The translations under genes and the position numbers were made by a program. This document shows positions 7,255 to 35,595 of a stretch of DNA of 39,712 nt, one piece after another. The DNA comes from Balneolales bacterium (GTDB taxonomy: Bacteria > Bacteroidota > Rhodothermia > Balneolales > Cyclonatronaceae): NCBI GenBank assembly GCA_020832405.1, contig JAFIET010000034.1:1-39712 (forward strand), read 5' to 3'. Under the pieces are notes generated by a model. That model searched no databases. It saw nothing but the letters and a program-made list of their open reading frames with translations, and was not told the DNA's origin. Every line of letters starts with the position of its first letter. Position 1 is the stretch's first letter.

Positions 7255-8431
7255 CTTCATGCTCCTCCCGGCGGTGTTTGGAAATATTCATCAAAACGCC
7301 CATCATAAATCCGGCAGTGAGCATGCTCGTACCTCCGTAACTGATAAACGGCATCGGCAGCCCCGTAACCGGAAAAAGACCGGTCGCAACGGCCGCATTC
7401 ACGAGCCCATACACCACAATGGTGATCGTGCAGGCCATGGCCATGTAGGCACCGAGGTCGTCGCGGGCACGGTTTGCAATAAAAATGACGCCGCGGATCA
7501 GAATCACCACGTAAATCAGCAGCAGTGCAAATGCACCGAGCAGGCCGTACTCTTCGGCTATAATGGCATAAATAAAATCGTTGTAAGGAGCCGGCAGAAA
7601 GTCGCGCTGTGTGCTTTTGCCCACACCAACACCCAAAAGGCCGCCACGCGCTATAGCAATGTGCGCCTGCTGCGCCTGATAGCCACCGGGATTGCCCACC
7701 AGCTGACTGCTCTGAATGTTGAGAACCTGATTCACATAGTTGTTGAGCCGCGATTGGCGCTCTTGTGTTTGTGAAACCAGCAGCCCGCCCAGCAGCGCAC
7801 CGCTTAGCACCAGCAGCCCCAGATGCTTCACACTCATTCTGCCCACAAACATCATAATGAAGCTGAGCAGCAGTATAAGAGCCGCGCTCGAAAAATCTTC
7901 CAGACCCACAAAAAGGGCCGTACCGCAAATCCAGAACAGAGCCGGGAAAAAGGATTTGCCAAAATCTTCGATATAGGTCCTTTTTTGGAACATCATGTGG
8001 CACAGATACATCAGCAAAGCCACCATCGCCACCGACGACGGCTGAAACGCCACGCCGGCCAGGCTTAGCGAGCGCTTTGCACCGTGTACTTCCACCCCGT
8101 TATAGCTCACCCAGATCAGCAGCACCCAGCTCACAATCAACACCACCTTACTCCATTCGGCCACGATGCGATAGTTCACCTTGGCCGCTACAAACATGGT
8201 GATGAAAGCCAGGCTCAGCTTAAAGCCGTGCTTAAATAAAAAAGCACCGGCCGTCTCGCCCCTGTTCTCAGCGAAATAAGCGATGGATGAGTAAACAGCC
8301 AGACAGCCGAAAACCATCAGGGCAATCACGCAAAACAGCAGCACACCGTCACTGCCACTGCGCATGCCGGTATCCTCCGCCTCAGGGGAGGGGATGCTGC
8401 CAAAGCCGGTATGTGGGGTTGCAGTACTCAT
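7247..8431 (-). CDS. ftsW: Peptidoglycan glycosyltransferase FtsW
   Basis: FtsW is a SEDS-family polytopic membrane enzyme that polymerises lipid II into glycan strands at the septum, paired with FtsI. About ten hydrophobic segments are visible. The SEDS periplasmic loop (VGNPGGYQAQQAHIAIARGG) with the downstream segment GVGKSTQRDFLPAPYNDFIYA is intact, as is the C-terminal PMPFISYGGTSML signature. The first 30 residues are a hydrophilic cytoplasmic tail. The 394-aa length is normal. A 60-bp gap separates it from murD with no Shine-Dalgarno, whereas its own 3' end (EHEDA, GAGGAG codons) supplies the Shine-Dalgarno for murG. Confidence 0.97.
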   Translation of the reverse strand: MSTATPHTGFGSIPSPEAEDTGMRSGSDGVLLFCVIALMVFGCLAVYSSIAYFAENRGETAGAFLFKHGFKLSLAFITMFVAAKVNYRIVAEWSKVVLIVSWVLLIWVSYNGVEVHGAKRSLSLAGVAFQPSSVAMVALLMYLCHMMFQKRTYIEDFGKSFFPALFWICGTALFVGLEDFSSAALILLLSFIMMFVGRMSVKHLGLLVLSGALLGGLLVSQTQERQSRLNNYVNQVLNIQSSQLVGNPGGYQAQQAHIAIARGGLLGVGVGKSTQRDFLPAPYNDFIYAIIAEEYGLLGAFALLLIYVVILIRGVIFIANRARDDLGAYMAMACTITIVVYGLVNAAVATGLFPVTGLPMPFISYGGTSMLTAGFMMGVLMNISKHRREEHEDA

Positions 8432-8491
8432 GAAACAGTTGTGATGGTGTTTTTCGGGGGAAGGCTTTCCGGGCCGGGTCTCAGCTTCTGG

Positions 8492-9859
8492 CTATTCCGG
8501 CAGCGCCATTACGGCCTGCTTGAAGACCCTTCCGCGATGTTCATAATTTTCAAACATATCAAAGGAAGCACAGGCCGGACTTAGCAGCACCACTTCGCCC
8601 TTACGGGCCTGACGGCTTGCAATCTGCACTGCTTCCTTCATGCTCTCTGCCTCAAAAAAGTAGAGCGCATCCCGCGAAACCTGCTCGCGGATGGCCGCCC
8701 GTGCCTCGCCGATGGCGATGAGGCTGTGCACTTTTTTCTTGAGCTGATCAGTGAGTTCGCGGTAGTTGTTGCCTTTATCCTGACCGCCGAGAATCAGCAC
8801 AACCGGTGCCTTTATGCCCTGAAGCGCGTACCACACGGCATTCACATTGGTTGCCTTACTGTCGTTGATGTAGCGCACCCCGTTGAGGATGCGTACCTGC
8901 TCAAGGCGGTGCTCCACGCCTTCAAAAGTTTTCAGGCTCTGCCGGATGTGCTCCGAAGCAATGCCGTTGAGGCGCCCGGCGAGGGCAACGGCCATGCTGT
9001 TGGCCAGGTTATGGCGGCCGCGCAGGCTCACCTCATCCTTATGCAGCAGCACCTCTTCCTGCCCGTCGAATCGCAGCACAATATGATCATCGCGCAGGAA
9101 AGCGCCGGTTTCGGGCTCTTCTGTGAGCGAAAACGGAATCCGCGCCGGGCCGTCGGGCCTTACACCGATCACGCCGATCTGCTCTTTGAGTACGGGGTCG
9201 TCGTAATTGTAAATCAGGAAATCGGATGGCAGCTGATTCCGGATGATGCGCATCTTGGAAGCCACGTAGTACTTAAACTTGTTCTGATAGCGGTTCAGGT
9301 GATCCGGGGTGATGTTGAGAATCATGCTCACCCGCGGGCGAAAGCTCCGGATATGATCGAGCTGAAAACTGCTCACTTCCAGGATGAGGTCCTTATCGGC
9401 AGCCGTTTGATGTACCAGCTCGGAAACCGGTACGCCGATGTTTCCGCCAACCAGGGCCGGCCGCTGCGCGGTTTCCCACAAATGGCGCATCCAACTCGTT
9501 GTAGTGGTTTTACCGTTGCTTCCGGTCACTGCTGTAAGCGGACTCTTGCTGAACCAGCAGGCCACCTCCATTTCGCTGTACACCTTTATATCGTTGAAAA
9601 AGAAATACTGAATCAACGGAGCTTCATCGGGCACGCCGGGGCTCACTACCGCAAAATCAGCCACCTTAGCCCGGTCTGAGTGCCCCTTTTCTTCAAACGG
9701 AATACCTTTTTCGGTCAGCACCGCCCTCGACTGCTCCGAAAGAAAGCCGGCATCGGTCACGAACACAGTAGCGCCCATACCGTGCAGCAAAACAGCTGCC
9801 GCAACACCGCTGCGCGCGCCACCAACAATCACAATAGTTTTACCGCTGATCTCTTTCAT
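8492..9859 (-). CDS. murD: UDP-N-acetylmuramoylalanine--D-glutamate ligase MurD
   Basis: MurD is the cytoplasmic ligase that adds D-Glu to UDP-MurNAc-L-Ala. With the start at 9859 the protein is 455 aa and begins MKEISGKTIVIVGGARSG, the N-terminal UDP-binding fold. The P-loop GSNGKTTTT and the central and C-terminal Mur ligase segments (SSFQLDHI; NDSKATNVNA; LSPACASFDMF) follow in the expected order. The open frame extends upstream to 10195, but that extension is simply mraY read out of frame. The ATG at 9859 gives an ATGA overlap with mraY and puts the Rossmann fold at the N-terminus. There is no Shine-Dalgarno, which fits coupled re-initiation. Confidence 0.97.
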   Translation of the reverse strand: MKEISGKTIVIVGGARSGVAAAVLLHGMGATVFVTDAGFLSEQSRAVLTEKGIPFEEKGHSDRAKVADFAVVSPGVPDEAPLIQYFFFNDIKVYSEMEVACWFSKSPLTAVTGSNGKTTTTSWMRHLWETAQRPALVGGNIGVPVSELVHQTAADKDLILEVSSFQLDHIRSFRPRVSMILNITPDHLNRYQNKFKYYVASKMRIIRNQLPSDFLIYNYDDPVLKEQIGVIGVRPDGPARIPFSLTEEPETGAFLRDDHIVLRFDGQEEVLLHKDEVSLRGRHNLANSMAVALAGRLNGIASEHIRQSLKTFEGVEHRLEQVRILNGVRYINDSKATNVNAVWYALQGIKAPVVLILGGQDKGNNYRELTDQLKKKVHSLIAIGEARAAIREQVSRDALYFFEAESMKEAVQIASRQARKGEVVLLSPACASFDMFENYEHRGRVFKQAVMALPE

Positions 9860-24055: not shown

Positions 24056-24168
24056 GTGGGAAGGACTGCGCAGTTTTTTGCAGGACAGACAGATTTCTCA
24101 AACCTGACCTAAAGCACGGTTGGGTATTGAGGTTAGCCTATGGCTGACTGAGTTATTCTGAATTAGCG
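24056..24168. other. Short intergenic region after the binding-protein gene
   Basis: This gap separates the convergent binding-protein gene and the HNH-linked small gene. A short GACTGCGCAGTTTTTT dyad with a T run at 24064-24079 could act as a weak + strand terminator. An imperfect 7-bp hairpin lies at about 24133-24149. Nothing else was recognised. Confidence 0.35.
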
Positions 24169-24345
24169 CTAAACGTCATTTTTTTCATGGATTACCCCTT
24201 CAATAATTTCGAACCAGGGAATTCTTTCAGCAATTGAATCCTCAATTTTGAGTATCTCCGCTTCTGTCAAAGCCCGACCGATAGCTTCGCGCGCTACTGT
24301 CTGAAGATCTTCGGTTTTGATTGAATAAATTATTCTGTCACTCAT
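24169..24345 (-). CDS. Small conserved-looking protein downstream of HNH nuclease (58 aa)
   Basis: This is a 58-codon frame from ATG (24345-24343) to TAG (24171-24169), starting 6 bp after the HNH gene stop on the same strand. The protein is acidic and mostly helical in appearance. It has a middle segment REAIGRALTEAEILKIEDSI and ends EGVIHEKNDV. The pattern 'DLQ-VA-E-IGR-LTEAEI-KIEDSI' recalls small uncharacterised bacterial proteins, but I cannot name a family. No cysteine, membrane helix or DNA-binding motif is evident. Its tight spacing implies co-transcription and perhaps a partner or modulator of the nuclease. That role is inference. Confidence 0.72.
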   Translation of the reverse strand: MSDRIIYSIKTEDLQTVAREAIGRALTEAEILKIEDSIAERIPWFEIIEGVIHEKNDV

Positions 24346-24351
24346 CACTTT

Positions 24352-25269
24352 TTATTTTAAAACGTGGTTTCTGTGCCATTCCAATGCACTTTCATCGGGC
24401 CATAAATTGGGGTTGAGCGGCAAGGTTATCTCCTTTTCTTTCAGCTGGGCCAGCACATTATTACCAAACATCTGAGCTGATTCATCCGGCAAATCAGCTA
24501 TTTTCTCAGAAACAATGATTTTCCGGTTATTAGCCACACTAAACCAGCCAACATCAAATGTCCAGTGATGTAATCTGCAAAGTGACAGACCATTCCATAT
24601 ATCATCCTTTCCTTTAGCACTATGAGGAATGATGTGGGCCGCCTCAGCTTCCCATATTTCAGAGTCAGGCGCCCTGAGCTTTAGACCGCAGACCGCACAA
24701 GAACAGTTGTAAGCCTGCATAACAGCTCTCCTGAAACTTCTGAGTCTTACGCTTTGAAGTGATGGCTTAACGGATGCTTCATGGATACTAAAAGGCTTGT
24801 AGTTTGCCGGCTTACGCTTACTTATCAGCCTTTGCGAATATCGCTCAACTTCAAATGATTTAATGGGAAGGACTTCTTTTTCAGATTCAGGTAATCCTCT
24901 CAGTTTCAATGCTTCATCAAAGCCATTCTCAGTGAGCATCCACTCTTTTTGACCTGTAATTTTGAATGTTTGCGATGGCAGTGAAACGAAACTCTGCTTT
25001 GAAAGACTGTGCGCGGCCCGGTACAGCAGCCGATTCCACAAATTAGATTTTTTGATGCGGTTTTCTTTCCTGTAAACGGTTTGCAGTTCGAACGACCGCT
25101 GCTCGCTGTTAAGCATAAAAAAGTCAGCTATTTGGGTAACGACTTCATCTCCCTTCGCAAACTCCTTCACAACGCCCCCATTTTTGAAAAGCGCAATCAG
25201 CAGCTGCTCTTCAACCTCCTCCCTTGAAGGCATACGCATTTTCGCAAACATCTCCGCCTCATAGCTCAT
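24352..25269 (-). CDS. HNH endonuclease with Mrr-N-like winged-helix domain
   Basis: This is a predicted restriction-type DNA endonuclease. Residues about 15-122 look like the Mrr N-terminal winged helix (LLIALFKNGG...; LWNRLLYRAAHSLSKQSFVSLP; WMLTENGF). Residues about 175-240 form an HNH_2-type module: C191-x-x-C194, H212 in AEAAHIIPH, N226 in WNGLSLC, C231 and H234-H235, consistent with a beta-beta-alpha metal site. The linker (125-170) is basic. The 305-aa length suits a stand-alone enzyme. No methyltransferase gene is in the window, so a modification-dependent (type IV-like) mode is possible. Base composition is clearly more AT-rich than the flanking genes, which suggests acquisition by transfer. 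No Shine-Dalgarno is visible. Confidence 0.85.
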   Translation of the reverse strand: MSYEAEMFAKMRMPSREEVEEQLLIALFKNGGVVKEFAKGDEVVTQIADFFMLNSEQRSFELQTVYRKENRIKKSNLWNRLLYRAAHSLSKQSFVSLPSQTFKITGQKEWMLTENGFDEALKLRGLPESEKEVLPIKSFEVERYSQRLISKRKPANYKPFSIHEASVKPSLQSVRLRSFRRAVMQAYNCSCAVCGLKLRAPDSEIWEAEAAHIIPHSAKGKDDIWNGLSLCRLHHWTFDVGWFSVANNRKIIVSEKIADLPDESAQMFGNNVLAQLKEKEITLPLNPNLWPDESALEWHRNHVLK

Positions 25270-25927
25270 GCGATGCAGCCTCTACAAAAATAGATTAATG
25301 TTCCGTTTTCATCACCTAAATTAGCATAAATCAACTAAAGAACAACAGACCCGGCCGCTTCTGTTACCCCCTCCCTTGCGGTGATGTTTCACGGCTTAAC
25401 CCCGCAAAGCACAGCTAACCCACATTTGGGTGCCCTATTTTTTGGGGATGGGGTTTGGCCTGTACCCTGCAGCCCAACAGCACCCGAATTACCGGAGTTT
25501 TGATTTTTTGGGTTGAACCCCGTGCGCATCAGGAGCAGCGGTGTAAAAGAGCACGCACGCCCCTACGGCTAATCCCGTGCTTTTGGGGATGCCAAAACAA
25601 TTTTCATCACAGGGATAATACCGCAGGCATGACTGTAAAATAGACCCGATTTCACTGACGCTTTACTTGGATCCTGTTTGGTTAGCTCGGAGGCCAGACC
25701 AAATCTGCTTAATGGACTAAGCAACACCAGCCTTTTTTGGCACTAACCGACACGCGGAACAAAAAGCAAGGCGTTTTCCGCAGGGCCCGTCGTTCAGTAT
25801 CCGCAAAGCTGACAGTGATGCGCACGGAGTCGCCCTAAAAAAAAGAAAACGAAAACTGCCGTGTAAGCGGGTCCAAAAATGACCCTCTTTTCACGCTTTC
25901 CGGTTTCGGGCGCTTGGAGTACTTGGG
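25270..25927. other. 658-bp intergenic region without a recognisable gene
   Basis: No supported gene was found. A 62-codon frame at 25455-25643 has atypical composition and no family pattern. The stretch contains two copies of TTTTGGGGATG (about 25441 and 25581), small dyads (GGGTTGAACCC near 25510; TGCTTA/TAAGCA at 25706-25723), and a GGGTC/GACCC hairpin near 25869-25885 that might help end hisC. Its patchy composition looks like degraded sequence beside an inserted nuclease cassette. Confidence 0.5.
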
Positions 25928-30970: not shown

Positions 30971-32902
30971 TCAGTCAGCCTGCACCAGAACAAGCTGCGC
31001 CTGATCATTTCGTGCCACAACGGCAGTGAAATCAATAAAAAGCTCATATTTTTCAGCCGGCAATACGGCAGGCTCAAAACGTAACTCGCGGGTATAAATC
31101 AGGCTGTGGGTTTCATCATCATACCTGTACGTTACCTCATACCGGCCAAATGAGGTTTCATGAGAAACGGATGCCGGTAAGGCTTCAATCACGAAATTAT
31201 CCGGCAGCTTATAAACGAGCTCGTCTCTATCGGAATAGTTCATGTTCAGGTGCACCGCCTGCTGCCTGTTCTGTACAGCAGGGGCAACCCTCATGTGGTT
31301 TTCGAACATATTCGGAACTATAAAAATCCGGTTTCCCATGCGTCTGCCGAATGAGGGCACTTCCAGTTCAGCAAATACTCCGGCGAACGCAGCAAGCGGG
31401 TCTGCTTCAACCTGAAACTCCCTGATCTCAGCTCTGTTAAGGGCCAGCAGCCTTTCAACCCTTGTTGCCTGCGCACCGCGCTGCAATCCGGCTATGTAGC
31501 GGATGCTTTCATGCTGATGGCCGCCGTATCGGGTGTTAATACGGGCGCTGGCCGTTCCGTTTGGCAGGATGCTGATATCCGCCTTACGCTGCTGAAAGTT
31601 TTGCTCGGGACCTAAAAACGGCGTACGCACGAGGGTACCTCCGTTATCATTAAAAACCAGCGTGTAACGGTCGTGATTTGCCCTGCCGATGTAACCCGGC
31701 GGGAAAATATTACTGGTTGATTCAATCCAGAGTGTATCGCTCTCCAGCGGTACCATCAGAATAGCATGGTTGAAAGAGTTGAACGGAAACGCGGGATCAA
31801 TTTCCCTGTGCGCATCACCTGACGCAATCAGGGCAGGGTAAGAGGGGATTCCGGCTACATCGAGCATGGCCTTGAGCATGTTTGTAAGCGCCTTACAATC
31901 CCCATACCGGTTTTGATCCGTGAATAAGGCTGTTTCGGTCTGCCAGCCTCCGATTCCGAGCTGAATGCTCACATAGCGGGTGTTTCGCTGCAAATAGGAA
32001 TACAGCGCCATGATAATTTCTTCCTGAGACTGATGGGAAGCTGCGATTTGTTCGATTCGTGAAATGGTTTCGGGTGTGAGCCCCTGCCTGCCGCTCCAGA
32101 GTCCGTTAACCCAGGCACCAAAGTCGTTCCAGCTTTGCAGAGAGCCATTTTCACCGTTCATGCTGAACTCATCGCTTTTGATCAGTATCAGCGGTATCAA
32201 ATCACGTACCCGGGGGCCGTAGGCTTCACGCCTGATTACGGGCAGATTATTCAGCTCCCAGCTTAGCTTGCGGTTACCTCCCCGAAGCTCTTCCGCCGGT
32301 TCCGCATTTTCAATATTAAACGTGCGGAACTCAACCGGCTGTAGTACGGGCAGCGTTACTTCAAAACTTGCGTTTTGTACCGACAAGCGCTCGTTTGCCT
32401 GAGGTACAAAACCCGGCAGATTAATAAACCCTCTAAACCGAATAGTATATTCGAGCTCGATGGTGTAGGGGTACTGATTGTGAAACAGTTCGAAAGATTT
32501 CAGCCGTGCATCATCCACGAAATTAATGTTGCTGAAGGCCGGGCGGTCGTCAATATCACGGTTCCTGATTCGCCTTATGCGGTTTCCGTCTGAATCATAC
32601 AATGCAGCGCTGATATTGTGTACCGACGTGAACGAGTCATATCTGAGTGAGACCTCCCCGTGTGTGCGCGCCTCCCGGTTCAGCACGGTAATTACCCTGC
32701 GCACGTGCAACTCCCCCCTGCCGGGCTGCTCGTACACAAACCTCATGCTGTGCTCGCGTACAACAGCATCTGCATCGGTCAGCAGTTCAGCCGGCACCTG
32801 GCTTACGGGCAAATCGTTGCTTCCGGCATATACTGTGCTGTGGGCGAAGAGGCCCTGAATAAATAAGGCTGCGATATAAAGCGCGAAAAGTTTCCTGCTC
32901 AT
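30971..32902 (-). CDS. Exported DUF3857/transglutaminase-like protein, catalytic Cys present
   Basis: This is a secreted protein with an N-terminal DUF3857 beta domain and a transglutaminase-fold core. The ATG at 32902 gives a 643-aa protein with a clean signal peptide (MSRKLFALYIAALFIQGLFA); the longer frame to 32965 would overlap the upstream gene's 3' end. The core holds catalytic C336 (RYGDCKALTNML) and H379 (FNHAILMV), with E394 (WIESTSN) where the triad Asp usually lies. A C-terminal beta domain (about 440-643) resembles the DUF3858 type. It starts 10 bp after the stop of a related gene, so the two form an operon. The function in Bacteroidota-like bacteria is unproven; peptidase or cross-linking roles are possible. 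Confidence 0.86.
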   Translation of the reverse strand: MSRKLFALYIAALFIQGLFAHSTVYAGSNDLPVSQVPAELLTDADAVVREHSMRFVYEQPGRGELHVRRVITVLNREARTHGEVSLRYDSFTSVHNISAALYDSDGNRIRRIRNRDIDDRPAFSNINFVDDARLKSFELFHNQYPYTIELEYTIRFRGFINLPGFVPQANERLSVQNASFEVTLPVLQPVEFRTFNIENAEPAEELRGGNRKLSWELNNLPVIRREAYGPRVRDLIPLILIKSDEFSMNGENGSLQSWNDFGAWVNGLWSGRQGLTPETISRIEQIAASHQSQEEIIMALYSYLQRNTRYVSIQLGIGGWQTETALFTDQNRYGDCKALTNMLKAMLDVAGIPSYPALIASGDAHREIDPAFPFNSFNHAILMVPLESDTLWIESTSNIFPPGYIGRANHDRYTLVFNDNGGTLVRTPFLGPEQNFQQRKADISILPNGTASARINTRYGGHQHESIRYIAGLQRGAQATRVERLLALNRAEIREFQVEADPLAAFAGVFAELEVPSFGRRMGNRIFIVPNMFENHMRVAPAVQNRQQAVHLNMNYSDRDELVYKLPDNFVIEALPASVSHETSFGRYEVTYRYDDETHSLIYTRELRFEPAVLPAEKYELFIDFTAVVARNDQAQLVLVQAD

Positions 32903-32912
32903 ACCCGGCACC

Positions 32913-34934
32913 TTAGTTGTTTTCACCGGCACTCTCAGGAGCATCTGAAGCCGGAGCTTCAGCAACTTTTCTAAGGATTATCTGCTCGTTGTTCAAATCC
33001 ACAATATCAGCATAAAAATTACGAATATCGTCGTATTTGCCGGCATCAAAGAAAACGTCATTACGAATCAGGCGCGAGTTTAGCTGAATGATGTTCCCCA
33101 ATTGCTCAATCTGAAGCAGGTAGGCGGTTTGGTCGCCAAGCCTTATAATCTGAGATTCCGGCATATACTCTAATTCATAGCCATCAGGCAGATTAAGGGT
33201 AACGCTGTAGTTGTTTTCGATTCCATAAGGAAACTCAACCGGAAAATTACGAACCCTGTTTCGGAAAGGGTTACTTGTCCGCTGTGAAATCATAAACGGG
33301 TTTATATACATCATATCACCTGCGACCGACACAAAACTGCCGGATTTAATCTCGAGGCGGTGCCTAAGTGTCTCATCCGGATTATCCAGATTCCGTATAT
33401 CGTGCGAAATCAATTCAACATCAGGATTATTTCCGAGAATATGCTCCCTAAAATAGGCCTCTTCTTCTTCATTCTTAATACGCATACGCTGTGCTATTGC
33501 AGCATAGCCTGAATAGCGCATCTGCATCTGAAGGCTAATCATACCGTCGGTATCAATGTTTCCGACAGCAATTGTTTGAATAACACTACCCTGCTCCGCA
33601 CTTATACCAATTTTTCTCGCACTTTTGTTATCGATAACAAGACCGTCATAATTCAGCGACGCAATATTAAGCAAGCCGAACGGAACTGCATCAACTAGCG
33701 GGTCGAGCAGGAAGCTGCCTTCTTCCAGGTTGGTTTTAATAAGCACATGGCTAAAATTATTAAGGGAAGGATTATTCCAGTTTACATAGCCCCTGTTTCT
33801 TGTATTTATGAGCACCGGGTTAGCCTCAATTCCGGCGTCGCGCAGCAAAACAAGCAGCGTGAGCGCTTTTTCTGCCGAGTTACCGCTGAGGTTTTTCATG
33901 GCATCGCGCACACCGTTACGGTCGGTAGCATAAATACTGTATCTGTTATTCCAGGTGATTTCGCCGGCCACATAATTATACAGCGCCCTCGCTTTCTCCA
34001 AATCAGTGCTGCTTCCGGCAGTAAGCCTTTCAGCAAGTTCTCTGGTTTCTCTTGTGGAGCGGATTTGCCCGTCAAATACGGGGATATCACCAAGCCGCTC
34101 TGCAATGTCATCCCAGGTTTGGGCAAGGTCTCTCCGGTAGAGGCCGCGTTCGAGATAAGCGGTTAACGTAAACGTAACCCGGTTGAGGTAATTTGCCCTC
34201 GACGACATGTTGGGCTCGTTGCGAATGGCCGGCGCATCTTTCAAAACCATACGATGAAGCGTGTACGACTCGCTTCTGAAGGTATTTACGCCAAAGTCCC
34301 TGCCCGAATTCACCTGTGAGGTTTCATCGGTATCGAAGAGTTCAAAGCCCATAAGGTGCCTTTGGAAAATGAGCTCCTCAGGAATCAGAATCCGGTATTC
34401 GCTGTGCAGCGTAGGCTCATTTCTTTGGAAATGCCAGCCCTGAATAATGAACCGGCCTCTGGTCGTTAACTCATAGGAATACTCGATTACAGAACCTTCC
34501 CGTACATTTGGTAACGAGAACCGGGTTATTTCATACCTCCCGTCGGGCTCACTGTCAAAGTCTCTGCGGCGCAGCCGGTCGCGGCTAACGCTGCCGTTTT
34601 CATCACGGTTAAATGTTTGTGCCCTCAGGTTACTGAGGCTCTGCCGGCGGTCTTCCCGTATTGTAGAAAGTACAACATCGGTAAACTCTGACTCATCCGG
34701 GTTTAGGATTTTGATGCGCACATGCCTTCTGAATATAGAATTACCATTTTCATCGATATAGTTTTCACCGTAATCAGCAAGAATAATGGCCTTAGCCTCA
34801 TCATCGTCCCGGAAAGACATTACTTCCCATTCCTGATCTGAAATATCGCCCCATGATATCGGGCTGTCAGCAAACAATTTTGAGGTTAATATAAAGAGGA
34901 CTACAAAAATCAGAAACGATAATCGGATTGGCAT
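32913..34934 (-). CDS. Exported DUF3857/transglutaminase-like protein, Cys replaced by Ser
   Basis: This is a paralogue of the next gene in the same operon. The ATG at 34934 gives a 673-aa protein with signal peptide MPIRLSFLIFVVLFILTSKL; an upstream in-frame ATG at 34976 would add 14 residues before it. The DUF3857 region spans about 35-290. In the transglutaminase core the catalytic cysteine position reads GNSAEKA (S353) instead of GDC. H396 (FSHVLIKT) and D411 (LLDPLVDA) are kept, so it is probably inactive as a transglutaminase or uses a different chemistry. A C-terminal beta domain follows. The pairing of a Cys form with a Ser form suggests complementary structural and enzymatic roles, which is inference. 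Confidence 0.85.
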   Translation of the reverse strand: MPIRLSFLIFVVLFILTSKLFADSPISWGDISDQEWEVMSFRDDDEAKAIILADYGENYIDENGNSIFRRHVRIKILNPDESEFTDVVLSTIREDRRQSLSNLRAQTFNRDENGSVSRDRLRRRDFDSEPDGRYEITRFSLPNVREGSVIEYSYELTTRGRFIIQGWHFQRNEPTLHSEYRILIPEELIFQRHLMGFELFDTDETSQVNSGRDFGVNTFRSESYTLHRMVLKDAPAIRNEPNMSSRANYLNRVTFTLTAYLERGLYRRDLAQTWDDIAERLGDIPVFDGQIRSTRETRELAERLTAGSSTDLEKARALYNYVAGEITWNNRYSIYATDRNGVRDAMKNLSGNSAEKALTLLVLLRDAGIEANPVLINTRNRGYVNWNNPSLNNFSHVLIKTNLEEGSFLLDPLVDAVPFGLLNIASLNYDGLVIDNKSARKIGISAEQGSVIQTIAVGNIDTDGMISLQMQMRYSGYAAIAQRMRIKNEEEEAYFREHILGNNPDVELISHDIRNLDNPDETLRHRLEIKSGSFVSVAGDMMYINPFMISQRTSNPFRNRVRNFPVEFPYGIENNYSVTLNLPDGYELEYMPESQIIRLGDQTAYLLQIEQLGNIIQLNSRLIRNDVFFDAGKYDDIRNFYADIVDLNNEQIILRKVAEAPASDAPESAGENN

Positions 34935-35484
34935 AGCATAATTAGTTTTGCCGCGTAGCTTAAGCCAGAGCTGCACGACTATGATTTAAGTGGATTAAGT
35001 AGAGATTGAGCTGATAATCCGGCAAACAATACCCGACTCATAGCAGATATTTTATTCATAAACCTGCGAAATCAGTAGCTGTAGGGAGATTCAGAGAAGT
35101 TATTGGTCTGTTAATCAGGTTTTCGGGAATCTGTGAATACCCGGGCAGAACCGAAGAGTGGCTTTACCTGAGCTTTAATTCCGGTTCAAAATAAACGGCT
35201 TAATACCGGTACATACTCATTCTTTTATATGTTTATTTACACCAAAATAACTTATAAATTTATTTAAGCACATTCAATATAAAATTAATATTTTAATTTA
35301 TAACCCAATCCATTTAGTAAATCACTTTTGGGCCGTTATAATTTACGGCATTTAATATACGGCGCCATTAAACACCCTGCCTGTAAAAGGTTCACGAATA
35401 AACGCTCGACAACTTTTTCCTTCCAAATCAACAGATACCGGGCGGGTTGTAATCAAATTCATGAAGATTAGTTAGCTTTTTCAA

Positions 35485-35595
35485 ATGTCAGTTATGAAGT
35501 TTCGGTTCCACGCAGCTGTTTTTTGGCTATACATTTCAATCGCATTAACCCTTGCTAAGGGGGCTATTATCCGGGATTATTCCCGATTGCCGTGA
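35485..35595 (+). CDS. Possible small membrane peptide (36 aa)
   Basis: The frame starts MSVMKFRF, has one hydrophobic stretch (about residues 9-29) and ends in a basic tail (RDYSRLP). It stops 33 nt before a strong terminator and has a possible promoter about 150 nt upstream. No Shine-Dalgarno is visible and no homologue is known to me. It may be a chance frame. Confidence 0.18.
   Translation: MSVMKFRFHAAVFWLYISIALTLAKGAIIRDYSRLP

Follow-up and report, generated by a model that had tools for sequence, protein, structure and literature searches.

An HNH nuclease gene and a small partner gene that recur in place of the interior of PmeII/EcoO109I-type restriction-modification operons

A gene pair between an ABC solute-binding protein gene and hisC

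The window analyzed here is a 39,712-nucleotide stretch of a Balneolales contig (JAFIET010000034.1), and it contains two closely spaced minus-strand genes coding for an HNH nuclease and a protein of 58 or 59 residues. The features of the locus are as follows:

24056-25927, no strand: inserted interval of 1872 bp, from the convergent ABC solute-binding protein gene to hisC
24352-25269, minus strand: HNH nuclease gene, 305 aa, ATG start (open reading frame, Pfam HNH_2)
24880-25269, minus strand: N-terminal part of the nuclease (approximately residues 1-130), predicted winged-helix reader of DNA or its modification (AlphaFold2 model, weak Foldseek matches)
24535-24699, minus strand: HNH catalytic domain, residues 191-245, with zinc-ligand-like Cys and His residues (Pfam HNH_2, Foldseek)
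24169-24345 (ATG start, 58 aa) or 24169-24348 (GTG start, 59 aa), minus strand: small accessory gene, predicted three-helix bundle (homologous open reading frames downstream of HNH genes, AlphaFold2)

The initial annotation of this DNA described an HNH nuclease gene with a tiny gene 6 bp downstream, both within an AT-rich insert, and the arrangement and composition are as it stated. The gap is 6 bp if the small gene starts at the ATG at 24345, and 3 bp if it starts at the GTG. The pair has a GC content of 43.5%, against 58% in each flanking gene (a comparison that had been proposed beforehand), and GC3 values of 0.46 and 0.36, against 0.65 and 0.75 in the flanking genes. Low GC is not unique to the pair, with a second AT-rich spot (34501-35500) at 40% GC. 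The stretch at 30971-34976, which is AT-rich and partly below 45% GC, encodes two DUF3857/transglutaminase-like proteins in tandem (664 and 687 aa).

The ABC solute-binding protein gene and hisC are separated by 8 to 97 bp in three relatives (G003, G004, and G005), compared with 1872 bp in the window, and in the sister species G001 the same point is occupied by 1228 bp of other, noncoding DNA. The HNH gene is present in two of the six genomes of the genus, at different sites and with 53% identity, and it is not a core gene held at one locus, the finding that would have counted against the initial annotation. Because the flanking genes lie so close together in relatives, the HNH gene is scattered within the genus, and the GC content differs, we conclude that the pair is a foreign, horizontally acquired insert. 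The region between the HNH start and the hisC stop (25270-25927) consists of ~660 bp without a convincing gene, and the corresponding interval in G001 is rich in repeats.

No methyltransferase adjoins the pair within the window, no restriction-modification (R-M) remnant was found around it in a profile search of its flanks, and a search of the window's genome for the methyltransferase family described below gave no match. With no cognate methyltransferase beside it and no match to this family in the genome, the HNH protein does not look like a type II R-M endonuclease. The window copy is a stand-alone nuclease gene, catalytically intact as judged by residue conservation, with a small partner, situated between two housekeeping genes.

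The HNH nuclease and its small partner

Pfam HNH_2 matches residues 191-245 of the HNH protein above its cut-off (E 1e-11), which bears out the nuclease assignment, and in a 61-sequence alignment of homologues C191, C194, H212, N226, C231, H234, and H235 are invariant. The N terminus had been called an Mrr-N-like winged helix; a winged helix is indeed predicted by an AlphaFold2 model built from 61 sequences (pLDDT 89), with weak Foldseek matches outside the HNH domain to F93/MarR-type winged helices (E >0.1), but Pfam Mrr_N does not match. None of the known reader domains SRA, EVE, McrA-N, and SBD was matched in the protein, a winged helix being predicted instead, and we infer from the model that this domain may read DNA or its modification.

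Only TagI (1e-5) and VcaM4I (2e-5) were recovered below an E value of 0.001 when the model was compared with the PDB using Foldseek, and the next matches are EcoKMcrA and ScoMcrA; all four are modification-dependent HNH endonucleases. The HNH protein has both the fold and the intact catalytic residues that characterize type IV modification-dependent HNH endonucleases, and this suggests that its cutting is likewise modification dependent (type IV-like). The NCBIfam model NF045808, which describes phosphorothioate-dependent enzymes, aligns with residues 141-305 only (E 4.9e-29), scoring 101 bits against a cut-off of 180.

There are four full-length HNH homologues among ~400 genomes of the phylum, and a scan of genome contigs revealed 79 loci, which together span Bacteroidota, Ignavibacteria, Verrucomicrobia, Planctomycetes, Chloroflexi, Proteobacteria, Spirochaetes, and others; most of the loci surveyed are contigs of metagenome-assembled genomes (MAGs). 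The full-length protein was not found on plasmids, where the C-terminal half alone matches other HNH enzymes, and no viral or phage carriage of the cassette was found in IMG/VR. The HNH gene is under strong purifying selection, with dN/dS of ~0.05 to 0.2 in close pairs.

A homologous open reading frame of 58 to 70 aa lies directly 3′ of the HNH gene in 52 of 68 full-length loci; in two others the small gene has a different or unusual start, and in one it is frameshifted. About one-fifth of HNH homologues lack the small gene, although the HNH gene itself is intact. Absence of the small gene beside HNH homologues would have counted against the initial annotation, and its conservation instead bears out a truly linked partner. 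The initial view of a horizontally acquired, defense-type, stand-alone HNH nuclease with a reader-like winged helix is supported as well. It has dN below dS, and the AlphaFold2 model of its product is a confident three-helix bundle (pLDDT 91.5). The window protein has no NCBIfam, PADLOC, or PHROGs match, and no PDB relative with an E value below 0.001 either by sequence or by fold; the 52 family members give scattered single matches to Pfam, and no match was found in phages or plasmids.

Among 394 genomes of the phylum, 12 carry the small family without this HNH gene, mostly in the order M-R-small, M-small-R, or R-small (M, methyltransferase; R, endonuclease) with endonucleases of the RE_TdeIII type. 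Conversely, it adjoins the endonuclease in 6 of 28 TdeIII loci surveyed. In L169, L172, L173, L174, L177, and L181, small-protein homologues are found next to TdeIII-type endonucleases and the methyltransferases of these systems, with variable gene order. A divergent branch of the family adjoins queC in L180, L183, and L185, and in the first two of these it lies between queC and a 307- to 309-aa protein without a Pfam match. Because it sits beside TdeIII endonucleases without this HNH, the small protein is an accessory that restriction nucleases of unrelated kinds may have or lack, and for the same reason a role as a specificity factor for the HNH nuclease, one of the functions suggested at the outset, is unlikely. 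Its most likely role is to modulate the activity of the nuclease. TdeIII and EcoO109I are, we presume, both GGNCC-type enzymes, and a sequence context common to the two kinds of system is only an idea.

Replacement of restriction-modification operon interiors

In roughly one-half to two-thirds of the loci, the cassette takes the place of the inner part of a type II R-M operon, always of the same kind, composed of an N4/N6 methyltransferase gene (M) and a PmeII/EcoO109I-type endonuclease gene (R). Directly upstream of the HNH gene in many loci is the 5′ part of a PF01555 methyltransferase gene, cut at varying points, with a TSPPY motif that we take to denote N4-cytosine methylation; directly downstream of the small gene is the 3′ part of a PF14511 (EcoO109I) endonuclease gene, designated 'PmeII family' in plasmid records. 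Intact operons, in which M (~290 aa) and R (~250 aa) overlap at their ends, are common in Bacteroidota genomes and on small mobilizable plasmids, and never have an HNH or small gene inside. Such intact operons were seen on small, often mobilizable plasmids of Salmonella (p1795-1, L144), Acinetobacter (L145), Klebsiella, and Aeromonas. The initial statement that no methyltransferase accompanies the pair is thus true for the window, but its homologues often sit inside a broken methyltransferase-endonuclease operon; in all of the loci examined, no full-length methyltransferase lies beside the HNH gene, and those present are truncated.

Profile searches of the flanks identified a methyltransferase remnant (M′) upstream in 33 of 68 loci and an endonuclease remnant (R′) downstream in 33 of 68, and M′, HNH, small, and R′ are in that order and on one strand in all remnant-bearing loci. 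M′ always starts at model residue 1 to 6 (through a second piece in L100), and R′ always extends to the C-terminal end save where the contig stops first, whereas the last residue of M′ varies between 36 and 254 and the first residue of R′ between 2 and 207. Losses from M and R are always on the inner side, and the extents of M′ and R′ are correlated (Spearman -0.58, p 0.001, 27 loci). At the least-affected loci, codon 2 to 12 of R follows within tens of bases of the small gene's stop, and the R start codon and M C terminus are lost together; none of the loci examined has the HNH gene within R next to an intact M. About one-third of loci, including the window, have no R-M remnant, and the link to R-M operons is not obligatory. 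The 53%-identical copy in G001 (L031; HNH, 8610-9527; small, 8422-8598), which is at a different site from that in the window, has 53 codons of M′ (1-53) and a weak 16-codon trace of R′ (225-240, E 0.003), and these remnants support an R-M operon origin within the window's genus. We found no published description of this replacement pattern in the open-access literature, to which the search was confined.

In four loci (L038, L064, L068, and L096), R′ survives as an almost complete frame, although no intact M lies beside it. The HNH gene is followed directly by the full endonuclease frame, with no small gene, in L038, L068, and L096 (Bacteroidota and Treponema MAG loci), and in the last two of these the first ~85 endonuclease residues are strongly diverged and the catalytic part is conserved. 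G429, the MAG carrying L068, contains two intact M-R loci of this family at other sites.

Synonymous divergence differs between the cassette and its flanks. For the pair L072/L075, dS is 0.34 for HNH, 0.59 for small, 1.25 for M′ (dN/dS 0.04), and 1.11 for R′; for L047/L057 the values are 0.29, 0.21, 0.57, and 1.16, and for L036/L050 they are 0.15, 0.10, 0.26, and 0.43, respectively. Synonymous-codon identity is greater for HNH than for M′ in 41 of 42 comparisons and greater than for R′ in 42 of 42, from 45 listed pairs that overlap and correspond to roughly six independent ones; in L072/L075 it is 0.82 for HNH, compared with 0.59 for M′ and 0.65 for R′. Codon bias or composition was rejected as the source of the high HNH values, as synonymous-codon identity falls to, and levels off at, 0.36 to 0.41 in HNH pairs of 45 to 55% identity. 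By these measures the cassette is younger than its M′ and R′ flanks. On a methyltransferase tree, M′ sequences are interspersed with intact M and do not form one clade, requiring six changes, at least three of them forced, although these counts are approximate as L103 and L109 were counted as intact but are HNH loci. Because the cassette is younger than its flanks and M′ is not one clade, the cassette must have moved into different working R-M alleles on several occasions, or else recombination with such alleles has renewed the flanks; the low dN/dS of M′ (~0.04) indicates that M′ diverged as a working gene.

A hairpin-rich repeat (GGGCGTTA...TAACGC) is present just upstream of HNH in ~8 Bacteroidota loci; it was noted in L061 (~7885-7960), with similar stretches in L037, L042, L057, L064, L075, and L100. 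It is possibly integron-attC-like, but was rejected as part of the mobile unit, being a dispersed repeat in at least one genome, G422 (five matches), and not specific to the cassette.

Interpretation and relationship to known systems

The explanation that we favor, with a probability of about 0.58, is that of a mobile type IV-like restriction cassette that repeatedly displaces the interiors of PmeII/EcoO109I-type R-M operons, with the window holding a stand-alone derivative. The HNH nuclease would cut incoming DNA bearing a base modification, consistent with its fold, the lack of an active adjacent methyltransferase, the selected stand-alone copies, and the paired loss of M and R; the three-helix protein would modulate its activity as a general accessory of restriction nucleases. 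In many phyla, the cassette repeatedly replaces the 3′ part of M and the 5′ part of R together and leaves both outer ends of the operon in place, where they might act as homology arms in later replacements. If the nuclease attacks the mark made by M, then it could not coexist with an active M, which would therefore have to go, and with its methyltransferase gone R would have to be lost too. The gene pair, its conservation and selection, the predicted fold, the replacement pattern, and the younger age of the cassette are computational findings; the modification dependence, the mark, the homology arms, and the role of the small protein are proposals. Strict incompatibility of HNH and M is countered by G429, in which an HNH gene and two intact M-R loci occur together. 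The almost complete R′ frames in L038, L064, L068, and L096, the loci without an R-M remnant, and the predominance of MAG contigs also weigh against this explanation.

R-M operons are mobile and selfish, and the overall pattern gives the impression of one bacterial immune system taking over, again and again, from a competing one. A more specific version is tentative, and we would put the odds somewhat against it: the cassette would itself be an immune allele, selfish or in rivalry with the R-M operon, that spreads through homologous replacement with the outer ends as arms and, by attacking the mark of the methyltransferase, kills cells in which that enzyme is retained.

Intronless homing endonucleases place their gene at a fixed target and replace the neighboring target sequence. 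A sequence-specific HNH enzyme of this sort would cut the M-R overlap, repair would copy the cassette in with the M and R ends as arms, and the small protein would assist or temper the cutting. Such homing would account for repeated invasion of the same operon with its outer ends always retained, for a cassette younger than its flanks, and for the clustering of the least-loss loci at the M/R overlap. We nonetheless consider it unlikely, as the HNH domain resembles type IV enzymes and not the usual homing HNH families, stand-alone copies such as that in the window keep their catalytic residues though the genome shows no target operon, uninvaded M-R loci coexist with HNH in G429, and eight loci contain no group I or group II intron. 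A mobile intron of either group was rejected on this last ground, since an Rfam search of the eight loci at gathering thresholds returned only tRNAs and one riboswitch.

The constant order and single strand of M′, HNH, small, and R′ could also reflect decay of an ancestral four-gene M-HNH-small-R system, with M and R eroding, perhaps under the protection of a methyltransferase encoded elsewhere, and the related loci L072 and L075 do show unequal loss beside the cassette. This is improbable given that HNH and small never occur within intact M-R operons, that losses are always inner, that M′ is not one clade, and that the flanks are older than the cassette, M′ having diverged under the constraint of a working gene. 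We give equally little weight to a phosphorothioate-dependent McrA-type enzyme acting on dnd-modified DNA: the NF045808 match to residues 141-305 (4.9e-29) and the fact that sulfur-binding domains are themselves winged helices (PMC10853773) would allow the N terminus to be a diverged domain of this type, but the score (101 against 180) is well short of the cut-off, the reader domain lies outside the match, and this reading would not explain why the cassette is tied to m4C/m6A R-M operons. A toxin-antitoxin-like arrangement, with the small protein neutralizing a nonselective HNH nuclease that is released on infection, fits the tight linkage, the HNH/small overlap in some loci, and the small, predicted helical-bundle partner, but is an improbable account of the one-fifth of homologues that lack the small gene though HNH is intact, and of its presence with unrelated TdeIII R-M systems having their own methyltransferase.

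What we conclude for the window copy is modest, and it is the family of the pair that is of interest, since a type IV-like cassette recurs there in place of the middle of one R-M type in many phyla while the ends of the operon are retained. Should the nuclease recognize the mark of that operon, two opposed immune strategies would be replacing each other directly at a single locus, and genomics alone would allow the reader specificity of this family of winged-helix HNH proteins to be tested. The small protein, common also to unrelated TdeIII R-M systems, is an uncharacterized general accessory of restriction nucleases.

Among known systems, TagI and VcaM4I (SRA-HNH and EVE-HNH type IV enzymes) and EcoKMcrA share the HNH fold and are the best Foldseek matches, but their readers are PUA-superfamily or McrA-type domains, where a winged helix is predicted here. 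The C-terminal HNH half likewise aligns with the PT-DNA_restrict family of ScoMcrA and SprMcrA (NF045808), although below the curated cut-off, with the N-terminal reader unmatched and no SRA domain. The cassette differs from intronless homing endonucleases in its HNH type, its accessory gene, and the existence of stand-alone copies. Published winged helix-HNH proteins likewise join the two domains in a single protein and mostly lack an active methyltransferase beside them; the same study describes winged-helix fusion nucleases that read m6A, some of which adjoin a frameshifted, dead methyltransferase (PMC11037411). The proteins described here differ from these in length (305 aa rather than 224 to 283), in having a 58-aa partner, in being widespread among bacteria, and in replacing a single type of R-M operon time after time. 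A conflict between the two kinds of system has a precedent in PcaRCII, a proven methylation-dependent HNH nuclease that is at odds with the PcaRCI R-M system of the same genome (PMC8989522); there the R-M system silences the HNH gene, whereas here the HNH cassette occupies the place of the R-M genes.
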